DNA of 48,591 bases, from NCBI RefSeq assembly GCF_009695655.1, contig NZ_VUNM01000016.1, forward strand, positions 1-48,591, in the 5' to 3' direction. Within the stretch, counting starts at the first letter, position 1, and each line of letters opens with the position of its first letter. Positions 15,424 through 46,911 of this stretch are shown one piece after another. The notes below the pieces were generated by a model, which was given only the letters and a program-made list of their open reading frames with translations, was not told the origin of the DNA and did not search any database. The stretch is from Sharpea porci. Its GTDB lineage: Bacteria > Bacillota_I > Bacilli_A > Erysipelotrichales > Coprobacillaceae. The position numbers were made by a program, and so were the translations under genes.

Positions 15424-15829
15424 CTTAGAACTGATCAAAATAATCAACTGCTTTAAGAGAAACAGGATTATTGAGATAAACATAATTGAATTGATGATAA
15501 ATGATATGATCTTGAATATGAAAACTACAAAGATCATGATCATGCTTTAATACGGATTTATAGGCAAAGGTAATACCTTTAAGTTCTTTAATAAGATGCA
15601 TCATCAGGCCAAAGTCACTTATTGTCGTTACTGTGCTGAATTCATTTAAATCGTGATTATATTCTTTCAGGATGTTTTCAAAGACATGTCTTGTCCCTGA
15701 GCCTTCCTCACGCAGAAACAAGTGCTCTTTAAACACATCTTTAGGAAGTACTGTTTTATTAGCGAAAGGGTGATCCTTAGCACACACGCCGACAAACTCC
15801 TCTTTCTTATACATCCTGCTGGCATACTT
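15424..15829 (-). pseudogene. Duplicated 3' fragment of a LysR-type regulator gene
   Basis: These 406 bp match 18069-18474 without gaps, with about 17 differences counted by eye. They encode only the last 130-odd residues (effector-binding domain) of the LysR regulator at 18070-18921. The match stops sharply at GCATACTT, followed by unrelated sequence, so the DNA-binding half is missing and no ribosome site precedes the first Met (15814). The frame is still open and the changes are mostly silent or conservative, so the duplication seems recent or still exchanging with the intact gene. Confidence 0.85.
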
Positions 15830-15944
15830 ATAACAGCACTTTATAACATCATATTATGTGTAAGCACATATATTATTAAAGAAGAAATATTTGTATGGGG
15901 AATTAGTGAAAATCTCTTTTTTAAAATAGCTAATTTAGATAAAT

Positions 15945-16026
15945 GAACGGGGATTTGCGTAGAATATAAGATTAAACGAACGGGGATTTGCGTAAGAAAA
16001 GCATTTATATGAACGGGGATTTGCGT
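15945..16026 (+). repeat. 33-bp-period direct repeats before the first DUF4143 ATPase
   Basis: The 16-bp core GAACGGGGATTTGCGT occurs three times, starting at 15945, 15978 and 16011, exactly 33 bp apart. The 17-bp spacers differ. The last core lies exactly between a weak -35 (TTTATA, 16004-16009) and a -10 (TATACT, 16027-16032) with 17-bp spacing, so the repeats merge into the promoter of the ATPase gene that starts at 16057. Confidence 0.85.
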
Positions 16027-16056
16027 TATACTTTCTATAGAAAGGTGGAATTAAGC

Positions 16057-17397
16057 ATGAAAAATCCTGTATTTAAAAGAAAAATCTATAATGAAATTCT
16101 TGAATGGAAAAAAAATAGAAGTGATAAATATGCTTTGTTGATAAGAGGAGCAAGACGAGTCGGTAAATCGACAATAGCAGAAGATTTCGCAAAAAGAGAA
16201 TTTAAATCGTTTATCATGATTGACTTTGCACACACCAGCAAAGCAATCAAAGATTTATTTGATGACACTTACGATCTAGATTTTTTCTTTTTACAGTTGC
16301 AGCAGCTAACTGGAACCAAATTATATGAGCACGAGTCAGTGATTATTTTTGATGAAGTTCAATTACTTCCTAAAGCAAGGCAAGCGATTAAATACCTTGT
16401 TGCTGATGGTAGGTATAAGTATATTGAAACAGGGTCGCTTATATCGATTAGGAAGAACACTAAAGATATTTTAATTCCAAGTGAAGAACATAAAATATCT
16501 ATGTATCCTATGGATTTCGAGGAGTTTCTGTGGGCAATTGGTGACAGGATTTCTGCTGAAACGATAAAAATGCTTATAAAAAAAAAGCAGCCAGCAGGAA
16601 ATGCAATCCACAGGAATCTTATGCGAAAGTTTAGGCTGTATATGTTGATTGGAGGAATGCCTCAGGCTATAGAAACATATTTAGAGCAGAATAATCTACA
16701 AGCTGTAGATGAGACAAAAAGAGACATAGTAGATCTTTATGAAGAGGATTTTACTAAGATTGATGCTTCTGGATTGACTGCTGAAATATATGACGCAATA
16801 CCTGCAAGTCTAAGTGGTAATGCATCAAGGTATGTATTATCAAACGCAAGAGAAGGTATGCGTTCAGAACAGATTCGGAATTTGTTACCAGAAATGCTTT
16901 CTTCCTATACGGTTAATATAGCATATCATGCCAATAATCCTGGAGTTGGAATGGCACTGGAAAAAGATATGGGCAGATATAAATTATTTACATCCGATGT
17001 CGGTTTATTTGTTACGCTAGCATTTAAGGATAAGAATTATACTGAGAACACGATATATAATAAGTTGCTTTCAGATAAACTGGAAGCCAATTTAGGTTAT
17101 GTATATGAAAATGTCGTTGCCCAGATGTTAGTTGCAAAGGGAAACAACCTATTCTATTACACAATGGCGAGTGACTCCTCTAATCATTTATATGAGATAG
17201 ACTTTCTGACATCCGTAGGAAACAAGATATGTCCTATTGAGGTGAAATCCGGAAATTACAGAGGACACAAGTCTTTGGATATTTTTTGTGAAAAATTTAG
17301 TAGCCGTATAGGTGAAAAATACGTTGTTCATACAAAAGATTACAAGCGAGAGAACGGTATTAACTATATTCCTGTATATATGGTGCCATTTTTGTGA
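16057..17397 (+). CDS. AAA-family ATPase with C-terminal DUF4143
   Basis: A 446-residue protein. The AAA domain has Walker A GARRVGKST (31-39) and Walker B IIFDEVQ (about 102-108). A sensor-like ETGS motif follows, then MYPMDFEEFLW, the hallmark of this ATPase group. A C-terminal DUF4143 region (about 270-446) contains EIDFLTSVGNKICPIEVKSG, a PD-(D/E)xK-like strand pattern (D, then ExK) that is seen in the family but of unproven activity. Function is unknown; such genes are abundant and mobile in gut bacteria. I start at the Met of MKNPVFK (AAGGTGG upstream). The longer TTG-started frame would translate the promoter repeats. It stands alone and is flanked by LysR-gene duplicates. Confidence 0.8.
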   Translation: MKNPVFKRKIYNEILEWKKNRSDKYALLIRGARRVGKSTIAEDFAKREFKSFIMIDFAHTSKAIKDLFDDTYDLDFFFLQLQQLTGTKLYEHESVIIFDEVQLLPKARQAIKYLVADGRYKYIETGSLISIRKNTKDILIPSEEHKISMYPMDFEEFLWAIGDRISAETIKMLIKKKQPAGNAIHRNLMRKFRLYMLIGGMPQAIETYLEQNNLQAVDETKRDIVDLYEEDFTKIDASGLTAEIYDAIPASLSGNASRYVLSNAREGMRSEQIRNLLPEMLSSYTVNIAYHANNPGVGMALEKDMGRYKLFTSDVGLFVTLAFKDKNYTENTIYNKLLSDKLEANLGYVYENVVAQMLVAKGNNLFYYTMASDSSNHLYEIDFLTSVGNKICPIEVKSGNYRGHKSLDIFCEKFSSRIGEKYVVHTKDYKRENGINYIPVYMVPFL

Positions 17398-17826: not shown

Positions 17827-17846
17827 TCTTTTATAAAAAGATAAAT

Positions 17847-17888
17847 GAACGGGGATTTGCATTATGCTCTCTATATAAAGATAGAATA
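17847..17888 (+). repeat. Relic copy of the ATPase promoter module
   Basis: GAACGGGGATTTGC at 17847-17860 is followed by TTATGCTCTCTATA and AAAGATAGAAT. This parallels core 3 of the upstream array plus its -10 and ribosome site (TTATACTTTCTATA, AAAGGTGGAAT). The Shine-Dalgarno and the ATG have been lost, and no ATPase reading frame follows. It looks like the 5' stump of a second copy of the cassette. Confidence 0.65.
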
Positions 17889-18052: not shown

Positions 18053-18069
18053 AAAACATACTATTAATC

Positions 18070-18921
18070 TTAGAATTGATCAAAATAATCAACTGCTTCA
18101 AGAGAAACAGGATTATTGAGATAAACATAATTGAATTGATGATAAATGATATGATCTTTGATATGAAAACCACAAAGATCATGATCATGCTTAAGAACAG
18201 ATTTATAGGCAAAGGTAATGCCTTTAAGTTCTTTAATAAGATGCATCATCAGGCCAAAGTCACTTATTGTCGTTACTGTGCTGAATTCATTTAAATCATG
18301 ATTATATTCTTTGAGTATGTTTTCAAAAATATGTCTTGTTCCTGAGCCTTCCTCACGCAGAAACAAGTGCTCTTTAAACATATCTTTAGGAAGTACTGTT
18401 TTATTAGCGAAAGGGTGATCCTTAGCACACACGCCGACAAACTCCTCTTTCTTATACATCCTGCTGGCATACTTGTTGCGATCAAAAGTCCCTTCTATTA
18501 ACGCAAAATCTAGTTCTCCTTTAGATAAGAGCTGTAATAAACGATCTGTATTATCCATCACAACACAAATATTATTGCCTTTTACTTTTAAATAGTTAGT
18601 TATCTTTTCATCCATCTCATACCCACCAACAGTCTTCGTCACACCTATATGTAGTGTTCTCCCTTCATGTTCTTGAAGTTTGATCTGGATTCGTTTTTCT
18701 TGATAACACATGTTTTGAGCATATGTCTGCAATATTTCTCCTTGCTTGGTAAGTGTAAGAACACGATTTTCATAGTGAAAGAGTTTGCAGTTATAGGCTC
18801 GTTCGAGATAATGAATATGTTGTGTGACGGCTGGCTGAGTCATGTGCAGTGCCTCTGCTGTCTTACGATAATTTCGTATCTCACAAAGCATAAGAAATGT
18901 TCTTAGTCGAGTGTCAATCAT
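18070..18921 (-). CDS. LysR-type transcriptional regulator (YeiE/CysB-like position)
   Basis: A 283-residue regulator. The N-terminal winged helix (1-60) contains NYRKTAEALHMTQPAVTQHI and LERAYNCKLF, the LysR signature, followed by the linker helix and a two-lobed periplasmic-binding-protein-like effector domain (about 88-283). GGAGG precedes the Met of MIDTRL. It is divergent from the YeiH-type transporter gene, the arrangement of yeiE-yeiH in enterobacteria, so it probably controls that gene. The intergenic region has a loose inverted repeat (ATCATCCCATAT / ATATTATCAT) around an ATTAATTAAT palindrome that could be its binding site. Its 3' 406 bp are duplicated at 15424-15829. Confidence 0.85.
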   Translation of the reverse strand: MIDTRLRTFLMLCEIRNYRKTAEALHMTQPAVTQHIHYLERAYNCKLFHYENRVLTLTKQGEILQTYAQNMCYQEKRIQIKLQEHEGRTLHIGVTKTVGGYEMDEKITNYLKVKGNNICVVMDNTDRLLQLLSKGELDFALIEGTFDRNKYASRMYKKEEFVGVCAKDHPFANKTVLPKDMFKEHLFLREEGSGTRHIFENILKEYNHDLNEFSTVTTISDFGLMMHLIKELKGITFAYKSVLKHDHDLCGFHIKDHIIYHQFNYVYLNNPVSLEAVDYFDQF

Positions 18922-38077: not shown

Positions 38078-38120
38078 AATGTACTCTTCCTTTCTTTTCT
38101 ACTTACTAATAACTACTGTT

Positions 38121-38545
38121 TCATCATAACCCAAGTTCAATTCTTGCTTAACCGTGAGAAGGAAATTCTGATTTCAGACTTCTTTCTTCAAGGACAAACA
38201 CCTGAACCTTGGATATTCATCATAACCTAAGTTCGCTTCTTGCTTAACCGTCAGAAGGAAATTCTGATTTCAGACCTACTTCTTTAAGGCAAACACCTGA
38301 ACTTTGGATATTCATCATAACCCAAGTTCGCTTCTTGCTTAACCGTGAGAAGGAAATTCTAATTTCAGACCTACTTCTTCAAGGACAAACACCTGAACTT
38401 TGGATATTCATCATAACCCAAGTTCGCTTCTTGCTTAACCGTGAGAAGAAAATTCTGATTCAAACCTACTTCTTTAAGGGCAAACACATGAACCTTGGAT
38501 ATTCATCATAACCCAAGTTCGCTTCTTGCTTAACCGTCAGAAGAA
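38121..38545. repeat. 95-96-bp tandem repeats upstream of the ClpP-like gene
   Basis: Units start with TCATCATAAC at 38121, 38217, 38312, 38408 and 38503 (spacings 96, 95, 96, 95); the fifth is partial. Each contains TTCTTGCTTAACCGTGAGAA. Two more diverged copies of that motif appear at about 38622-38645 and 38725-38750. In the leftward direction, each unit encodes a short peptide (FLLTVKQE, NLGYDE) followed by stops. Only the unit nearest clpP has an ending (TVVISK, then TAG) that looks like a true C-terminus. The remaining stretch to 38890 has no gene. Confidence 0.85.
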
Positions 38546-38895
38546 AAATGCATGAGCCACCCTCCTTATTAACTGAAAACATTTAAAATTTCATGCTATC
38601 ATAACACTCAACAAATTATTGCTTAACCATGAGAAGAAAACTCTTTATCCTTATATTATATATACATGTTCACCTCATGAGACTATCTGTACGTTAATGT
38701 AACAAACTATTATAAATCTTAATCAATAATTGAGGAACCATGAGAGGAGAAAATTAGATAGGACTACTTTATAAGTGTTGGAGAGATAGTTTTTTCGTTC
38801 GGGAATTCTATTATAGCACTTCGATTTTGGTTTATAAACTTTTTACGGGGAGTAGTGAAGTGGTGGATATATTGGGCACTATTCTATTGATTAAT

Positions 38896-45408: not shown

Positions 45409-45436
45409 AGTGAGATCATTCTCACTCTTTTTTAGT
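45407..45436. terminator. Shared terminator between sstT and the convergent ATPase gene
   Basis: AGAGTGAGA-TCA-TTCTCACTCT followed by TTTTTT. The sstT stop codon overlaps its first bases, and the convergent ATPase ends just inside its T-run. Confidence 0.8.
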
Positions 45437-46751
45437 AGTCTGTCAGCAAGAAAGCCATATATGTAGGTAGGGTTAGAATCTTACCCTCTCTTCCTACATT
45501 ATATTGTCCTAATTTAATAGCTTGTTGGATATGATATTTCTCAGGGTGATTGAGAATAGTTTTTGTGCTTTTTGTATTACCTGTTGTTGCTTTTACTTCG
45601 ACAAGTATAGCTTCTCCATGATATCTCATGACAAAATCAATCTCCAACCCACTATCTTTATGATAATAGTAAAGCTTTCTACCCATCTTATGAAATATAT
45701 CAGCGATAAGATTTTCAAAAATAGCGCCCTTATATCCATAAAGATGACCATTTAATACATCAAACTGCGTCCCATCTTCCAACATACTAATAAATAATCC
45801 TGTATCACACATATACACCTTAAAAACATCCTGAATGGCATTACCATCCAAAGGTAATTCAGGTATTGACAAATTATAACATCTTGTAATAATACCTGCA
45901 TCTTCAATCCATTGAAGACTACCCAAATATCTTGCCGCAGTCGATCCCTTTTTTATAACAGAATATTGGAATTTTTTATTCTCTTTACTTAATTGTTTAG
46001 GAATGGACTCAAAACATTCCCTAATATGGGCTTTATCACCATTCGATGCATATTTCATCATATCATCTTTATAAGATGCAACGATATCACGTTGTATCTG
46101 TAGAACTGCATCCATTTGTTTTGTAGACACAAATGTCTGTACAGCATCAGGCATACCGCCTACTACAGTATATTGTAATAAGAGTTGTTGGAATCTATGA
46201 TGTAATGCATCAACAACTGGTGTTTCATTCTTTAAAGAAATTCTAAGCATATCAATCATATTATCCGTAATCCCATTAGCCCATAAGAACTCTTCAAAAT
46301 CCATAGGATACATTTCTATCACTGTTTCATAGCCAACAGGTATTGATGAGGGCATTTCACGATATCCTTTAATTCCCAACAAAGACCCTGTTCCAATAAC
46401 ATCATAGCGTCCATCAACCTTAAAGAATTTCAATGAAGTACGTGCTTGCGGACACTCCTGAATCTCATCAAAAATAATAATGGTTTCGCCTGGCTTAAAT
46501 ATAGCTTTATCACCAAGTAAGGCACTCATTATCATTGTAAGGTAATCAATTTCCAACGAATCTTGGAAAATGCTTTGAAAGCGAGGATTTTCAAAGAAAT
46601 TTAAATAAACAACATATTGATAATGCTTCTTTGCGAAAGCTAAAACAGAGGATGTTTTCCCACACTGTCTACATCCCTTAATAATAAGCGGTTTATGATT
46701 CTTGTCTTCCTTCCATTCCTCTAAGCATCTGTCAATCTTTCTCTTAAGCAT
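45432..46751 (-). CDS. Second AAA-family ATPase with C-terminal DUF4143
   Basis: A 439-residue paralogue-type protein of the ATPase at 16057-17397. Walker A is GCRQCGKTSS (25-34), Walker B IIIFDEIQE, then TGSLLGI and MYPMDFEEFLWANG. The C-terminal DUF4143 region has LYYYHKDSGLEIDFVMRYHG and ILVEVKATTG (a D...ExK nuclease-like pattern). Sequence identity outside the motifs is low, so it is not a recent copy. The ATG at 46751 has GGAGGG 8 nt upstream; the GTG three codons earlier is less likely. It stands alone behind a 33-bp-period repeat array. Function unknown. Confidence 0.82.
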   Translation of the reverse strand: MLKRKIDRCLEEWKEDKNHKPLIIKGCRQCGKTSSVLAFAKKHYQYVVYLNFFENPRFQSIFQDSLEIDYLTMIMSALLGDKAIFKPGETIIIFDEIQECPQARTSLKFFKVDGRYDVIGTGSLLGIKGYREMPSSIPVGYETVIEMYPMDFEEFLWANGITDNMIDMLRISLKNETPVVDALHHRFQQLLLQYTVVGGMPDAVQTFVSTKQMDAVLQIQRDIVASYKDDMMKYASNGDKAHIRECFESIPKQLSKENKKFQYSVIKKGSTAARYLGSLQWIEDAGIITRCYNLSIPELPLDGNAIQDVFKVYMCDTGLFISMLEDGTQFDVLNGHLYGYKGAIFENLIADIFHKMGRKLYYYHKDSGLEIDFVMRYHGEAILVEVKATTGNTKSTKTILNHPEKYHIQQAIKLGQYNVGREGKILTLPTYMAFLLTDY

Positions 46752-46779
46752 AGAAATCACCCTCCTCTACTTCTAGTAT

Positions 46780-46911
46780 AATGTAAGCAAAATATTTTTC
46801 AAGGGACTTTTCAATGTCACATGCAACTTTTTTAATGGACTTTTTGAGACTACATACAACTTTTTCAAGTGACTTTTTGAGATTACACGCAACTTTTTCA
46901 AGGGAGTTTTG
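46780..46911 (-). repeat. 33-bp-period tandem repeats before the second DUF4143 ATPase
   Basis: Four contiguous 33-bp units begin at 46780, 46813, 46846 and 46879; a decayed fifth may follow to 46944. Leftward, a unit reads roughly AAAAAGTCCCTTGAAAAAGT followed by TGCRTGTAATCTC. The unit nearest the gene supplies the -35 (TTGAAA, 46797-46802); a 16-bp spacer leads to the -10 TATACT (46775-46780). The other units repeat the TTGAAA element upstream at the same helical face. Confidence 0.88.

Follow-up and report, generated by a model that had tools for sequence, protein, structure and literature searches.

Clade-specific direct-repeat arrays at the promoters of PDC-S01 ATPase genes: candidate private operators

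Plasmid iterons are direct repeats of about 20 to 23 bp which are bound by a cognate, autoregulating Rep initiator. Regulators of the MalT type employ a STAND ATPase fold that likewise acts at promoter direct repeats. In a restriction-modification defence island, control is exerted by RptR, a separate 9-kDa repressor dimer with three 9-bp repeats around a 6-bp palindrome (PMC12255303). Among candidate defence systems, PDC-S01 is presented in the consulted part of PMC12988326 as a single-gene phage defence candidate, an ATPase fused to a PD-(D/E)XK domain, which is not experimentally validated, as is the case for most PDCs. The same part of that source counts 29,494 bacterial and 9,986 archaeal occurrences and ranks PDC-S01 as the fourth most common system. 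The consulted parts of PMC12988326 and PMC13356809 describe PDC-S01 without a promoter array and no array description was found in the searchable open-access literature, which suggests that the promoter arrays characterized here are new for PDC-S01 ATPases as far as that literature shows.

Two promoter arrays in the window

We analysed a window of 48,591 nucleotides of Sharpea porci (contig NZ_VUNM01000016.1), the whole stretch counted from its first letter, which carries two PDC-S01 genes, W1 and W2, each preceded by an array. The features are listed below.

15940..16038, plus strand: array 1, three 33-bp units (exact core match, TRF, shuffle test)
16027..16032, plus strand: TATACT, putative -10-like hexamer adjoining the last core of array 1 (from sequence)
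16057..17397, plus strand: W1, 446-aa ATPase with AAA_14 and DUF4143, PADLOC PDC-S01 (Pfam, PADLOC, clade A in the tree)
17842..17887, plus strand: decayed, gene-less copy of the last unit and promoter of W1 downstream of the ATPase, 85% alike over 46 bp (unit search)
45432..46751, minus strand: W2, 439-aa ATPase with AAA_14 and DUF4143, PADLOC PDC-S01 (Pfam, PADLOC, AF2 model)
46775..46780, minus strand: TATACT, putative -10-like hexamer, following the TTGAAA in the last unit of array 2 at a distance of about 16 bp (from sequence)
46780..46910, minus strand: array 2, four 33-bp units, the last degenerate (TRF, unit search, shuffle test)

The original prediction held that both ATPase genes sit behind repeats with an exact 33-bp period, and core matching, TRF and shuffling confirmed this at both loci, far above chance. 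In array 1, the core GAACGGGGATTTGCGT is identical at 15945-15960, 15978-15993 and 16011-16026, and TRF reports a period of 33 over 15940-16026. The cores of array 2 (about TCCCTTGAAAAAGTTGCRTG) start at 46905, 46872, 46839 and 46806 on the minus strand, with the fourth unit retaining only TCCCTTGAAAAAT, and TRF again gives a period of 33 (span 46795-46910). Direct-repeat scores of the upstream regions were 21 for W1 and 32 for W2, while the maximum among 300 dinucleotide shuffles per upstream region was 12 for both. The hexamer TATACT, said to close both arrays, is indeed present after each of them (16027-16032 and 46780-46775), and the repeat sequences of the two loci are different as described, the cores of these same-genome paralogues being distinct. 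The claim that both arrays share the number of units and the placement of the last one holds only approximately: array 1 has three units and array 2 three plus a degenerate fourth, and the registers differ, with the last unit adjoining the -10 in W1 and positioned at the -35 in W2, about 16 bp before the -10.

Two further repeats were observed in the window. At 38120-38547, outside long open reading frames, a 95-bp unit is directly repeated in 4.5 copies that are 92% alike. W1 lies between two 95%-identical copies of a LysR-type gene's 3' end (15424-15834 and 18069-18480). The congener locus L313 has a single LysR copy and lacks the ATPase at this place; therefore, a unit of about 2.65 kb was gained along with its own LysR 3' end.

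Spacing, core and position across the family

All four DUF4143 genes of the W1/W2 genome have upstream direct repeats, spaced at 33 bp for W1 and W2, at 23 bp for the third paralogue (C56) and present as one pair 85 bp apart for the fourth (C34). Across 43 genomes of the family, direct-repeat scores of at least 18 were reached by 28% of 78 DUF4143 upstream regions versus 1.6% of 124 control intergenic regions of the same loci (Mann-Whitney p 7e-12). In a protein tree, W1 and W2 belong to a clade of 37 genes (clade A) whose upstream regions match themselves most strongly at a lag of 33, in one sharp peak that is echoed at 66, so that the period is not peculiar to this pair but clade-wide. Five family genes, C56 among them, form clade B with peaks at 23, 46 and 69, and the remaining 42 have no common lag.

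The generality of the clade A period was assessed with 80 loci of named organisms collected via the clade A alignment. The best self-match lag was 32 or 33 in 58 of the 79 usable loci, which span Bacillota, Bacteroidota, Spirochaetes, Desulfovibrio, Verrucomicrobia/Kiritimatiellae and Euryarchaeota, the two archaeal loci (L161 and L162) having 3 and 4 units at 32-33 bp. Among 93 fresh genes of the same phylum, 78% had their best lag at 32-34 and 10% at 64-67, and arrays of the 33-bp type were also found at clade A genes on viral contigs. The lag-32/33 signal is limited to about -220 to +60 relative to the ATPase start codon: two bins in this interval contain it in 43% and 27% of genes, the other 43 bins (-2600 to +3700) in about 0-3%. 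At the threshold used, arrays with at least three units were detected for 167 of 248 genes, some genes being without a detectable array. The period of 32 to 33 bp is thus strongly enriched upstream of the ATPases compared with other genes, in agreement with the predicted tie to this gene family, and the arrays accompany the ATPase across phyla rather than following a single mobile element; a lack of enrichment or repeats that belong to a surrounding mobile element had been named as outcomes against the original prediction, and neither was found.

A 33-bp period for all DUF4143 genes was considered and rejected, given the 23 bp of clade B, the 39-41 bp in part of a third set and the lack of a common lag in the other 42 family genes. 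Among new clade B genes, the best lag was 23 or 46 in 24 of 26. Entire units are nearly identical in two clade B arrays, L282 and L057 (8 x 23 bp; alternating 46-bp double units), which look like recent array expansions. In the third DUF4143 clade, about 8 of 29 genes have a spacing of 39-41 bp and others carry repeated palindrome-like sites further apart. In the third-clade loci (L314-L323, L333, L335, L338 and L339), some of the 39-41-bp-spaced sites are palindromic (TTTCGATTATAATCGAAA), while other sites are paired palindrome-like sequences of about 36 bp, located 36 or 73-76 bp apart and ending beside the ribosome-binding site.

We examined 87 arrays in detail, each with 3-5 units. Their 227 spacings are mostly 33 bp (143) or 32 bp (64), and the spacing that an array prefers is passed on by descent in the tree, needing 14 changes compared with at least 21 in 60 shuffles. 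Each unit contains a core of about 13 bp with 0.8-0.97 identity between neighbouring units, while linker identity is 0.33, the level of random sequence. A comparison of orthologues at 60-97% identity gave 0.75 for the core and 0.36 for the rest. Because core and spacing are kept while linkers drift to chance, both are under selection. The cores of 74 arrays share a degenerate motif of about TGGAAAAATGTGA, near T-G/C-G-A-A-A-A-A-T-G-T-G-A, with 7.2 bits versus 2.8-3.0 when columns were permuted. The last core lies a median of 36 bp before the ATG, and 61% of genes have a predicted -10 within their last unit, an uncontrolled count. Second arrays (2-3 units, same spacing) were observed in L148 (about 5147), L160 (about 4441) and L172 (about 3818), following closely on the ATPase or on a toxin-antitoxin-like pair next to it.

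At 10.5 bp per turn, 33 bp correspond to 3.14 and 23 bp to 2.19 turns, a difference of about one helical turn. The original equation of 33 bp with about three turns therefore stands as an approximation, and since neither spacing is a whole number of turns, successive sites would be slightly rotated. Whether all sites occupy one DNA face, as was also suggested, depends on the twist of the bound DNA, and with the 23 bp (2.2 turns) of the sister clade a common face is no more than one possible arrangement.

The ATPases and probable recognition of their arrays

Both proteins score well above the Pfam cut-offs for AAA_14 and DUF4143 (27/28.1 bits), with 84.9/52.6 bits for W1 and 82.5/108.5 bits for W2, and match the PADLOC PDC-S01 models over nearly their full length (E 1e-101 and 2e-156, respectively). 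The clade B and C34 paralogues are likewise PDC-S01 by PADLOC. An AF2 model of W2 (pLDDT 94.8) was used for structural comparison, with predicted AAA (1-158), lid (159-235), winged-helix (236-315) and PD-(D/E)XK-fold (316-439) domains. Residues 1-325 of the model match the archaeal STAND-type ATPases 2QEN (Z 15.9, rmsd 3.8 over 258 aa) and 2FNA (Z 14.9), followed by CED-4 and NLRs at Z 13-14, and the maltose-system structure 8bob is among the Foldseek matches. The modelled AAA core followed by a winged helix has the STAND arrangement at the level of fold only, and a sequence search of solved structures found no relative. Modelled alone, the C-terminal domain has best structural matches that are almost all PD-(D/E)XK nucleases, including EndoMS, McrC, Can2, DdmD and Hjc, at middling scores (Z up to 7.8). 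Of the E...D...ExK residues, E346, D372 and E385 are conserved and K387 nearly so; with this fold and these motif residues the domain is a predicted PD-(D/E)XK nuclease. No conserved partner gene recurs at a fixed place around the ATPase genes.

Recurrence of the cores elsewhere in their genome was addressed by searches for four arrays, those of W1 and W2 (genome G000) and one each from G155 and G135. Allowing up to two mismatches, the W1 core is found only in its own array and in the one decayed copy (core at 17847), and the W2 core only in its own array; units of the G155 and G135 arrays match nothing but their own array within the respective genome. For these four sets of units, the searches revealed no regulon beyond the array itself. 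The array is a series of repeated sites with a conserved core at the gene's own promoter, and for the four arrays searched these sites are absent elsewhere in the genome except for the decayed W1 copy.

Protein pairs below 40% identity have a core similarity of 0.58, and this climbs to 0.77-0.78 for pairs above 70%. Cores of same-genome paralogues have a similarity of 0.603 compared with 0.587 after permutation (p 0.15, 39 pairs only). Similarity of the cores tracks protein identity and not a shared genome, which speaks against a single host factor. Covariation between protein columns and cores was analysed in 216 arrays, with relatedness handled through overall protein identity alone; smaller sets of 73 and 108 genes gave a weak signal. 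Ten columns covary with the core at z of at least 3, all of them in the winged helix (241, 270, 274 and 293) or the PD-(D/E)XK domain (344, 365, 369, 391, 392 and 397), while none of the 171 AAA/lid columns does. The effect is modest, with a winged-helix mean z of 0.30 and a permutation fraction of 0.013 uncorrected for several domains. These observations support, albeit indirectly, recognition of the array by the ATPase itself. Autoregulation by the bound ATPase, raised in the original prediction, is the best-supported reading, which we infer from private cores, cores that follow the protein and covariation in the predicted DNA-binding domains.

Proposed control and alternative readings

We propose that the array is a private operator, every unit of which is bound by the ATPase as part of a pitched chain that represses its own promoter, and we consider this reading as a whole probable. 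The STAND-like ATPase would bind each unit via its winged helix, probably aided by the nuclease-fold domain, so that a chain of subunits would be held at a fixed pitch of 32-33 bp, or 23 bp in the sister clade. Cooperative autorepression would keep a potentially harmful ATPase-nuclease scarce, and release or depletion of the ATPase, for example in phage attack, would allow the promoter to respond. Autorepression is the simplest outcome because the last unit is usually in or beside the core promoter. Binding, cooperativity, repression rather than activation and a role in defence are what we infer; the sign of regulation is not readable from sequence, and MalT, for one, is a STAND protein that acts at direct repeats as an activator. 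A more speculative version, which we regard as unlikely, would make the array part of an immune device, with a chain of the ATPase-nuclease held on its private iterons in an inactive or primed state and phage disturbance releasing or triggering the nuclease. The clade pitches (33, 23 and perhaps 40 bp) would in that case record subunit geometry.

Somewhat less likely still, ATPase gene and array would together form a small mobile unit, with the arrays serving as its ends or as recombination sites at which the ATPase-nuclease acts to move or copy it. W1 is an insertion flanked by LysR 3' end copies of about 415 bp, a congener has no ATPase at the same locus, ATPase genes are multi-copy and found on plasmids and viral contigs, and W1 and the loci L148, L160 and L172 have their own unit or array repeated on the downstream side of the ATPase. 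Such extra copies are rare, however: 4 loci of the scanned set have a forward match beyond the array, and in one of them it is that of an adjacent DUF4143 gene. In nearly all loci, the array lies on the promoter side with its last unit fused to the promoter, and neither a terminal inverted repeat nor a shared target was found for W1. The extra downstream copies may be remnants of ATPase genes that once lay alongside, or may hint at recombination at arrays; they keep this explanation alive at low probability.

A host regulator or nucleoid protein, rather than the ATPase, could also bind the arrays, since the A-tract and TG motif common to the family cores might reflect a shared DNA-bending protein. 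We rate this as quite improbable: same-genome paralogue cores differ and are no more alike than cores between genomes, spacing follows the ATPase clade (33 versus 23) inside one genome, and covariation links the cores to the predicted DNA-binding domains of the ATPase itself.

The original suggestion that the array changes copy number was not supported by our results. Slipping tandem repeats that switch expression through copy number (phase variation) would fit the variation from 3 to 5 units between genes and the near-identical whole units of L282 and L057. Yet linkers of most arrays differ like random sequence (0.33 between neighbours) while core and spacing are kept, and the array region is at least 99% alike and of full length in 24 Bacteroides/Parabacteroides/Phocaeicola plasmids, with unit number also unchanged in a 25th that has gaps elsewhere. 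The combination of near-identical units and varying copy number that marks phase-variable repeats was not found, and phase variation is very improbable. An origin by tandem duplication or slippage was rejected on the basis of linker divergence at kept spacing and the unchanged plasmids. Equally remote is an array that works as RNA, in a leader or upstream transcript: in some genes about 1-15 bp separate the last unit from the start codon, but the last core is a median of 36 bp away from the ATG, units reach well upstream of the likely transcription start and the core is an A/T-tract direct repeat.

PDC-S01 comprises nearly 40,000 genes as counted in the consulted part of PMC12988326, and the array is a first concrete handle on its mechanism. 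It offers a binding substrate, an expected subunit spacing and a likely way in which the gene is controlled, and specificity can be read from hundreds of naturally occurring pairs of protein and DNA. Our results further suggest that defence screens in which PDC-S01 genes are cloned away from their native promoter would overlook part of the system.

The proposed operator differs in distinct ways from each of the known systems. MalT activates other operons through a different DNA-binding domain, whereas for the PDC-S01 units searched none was found outside the own array except for the decayed copy of W1. In contrast to plasmid iterons, the arrays suggest no role in replication, accompany chromosomal single genes, have a usual spacing of 32-33 bp in clade A and belong to another protein family. 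The RptR island is similar in being a defence locus repressed via direct repeats of its promoter, which overlap the -10 box (PMC12255303), whereas the proposed binder of the PDC-S01 arrays is the ATPase-nuclease itself, acting on 33- or 23-bp units with gene-specific cores.
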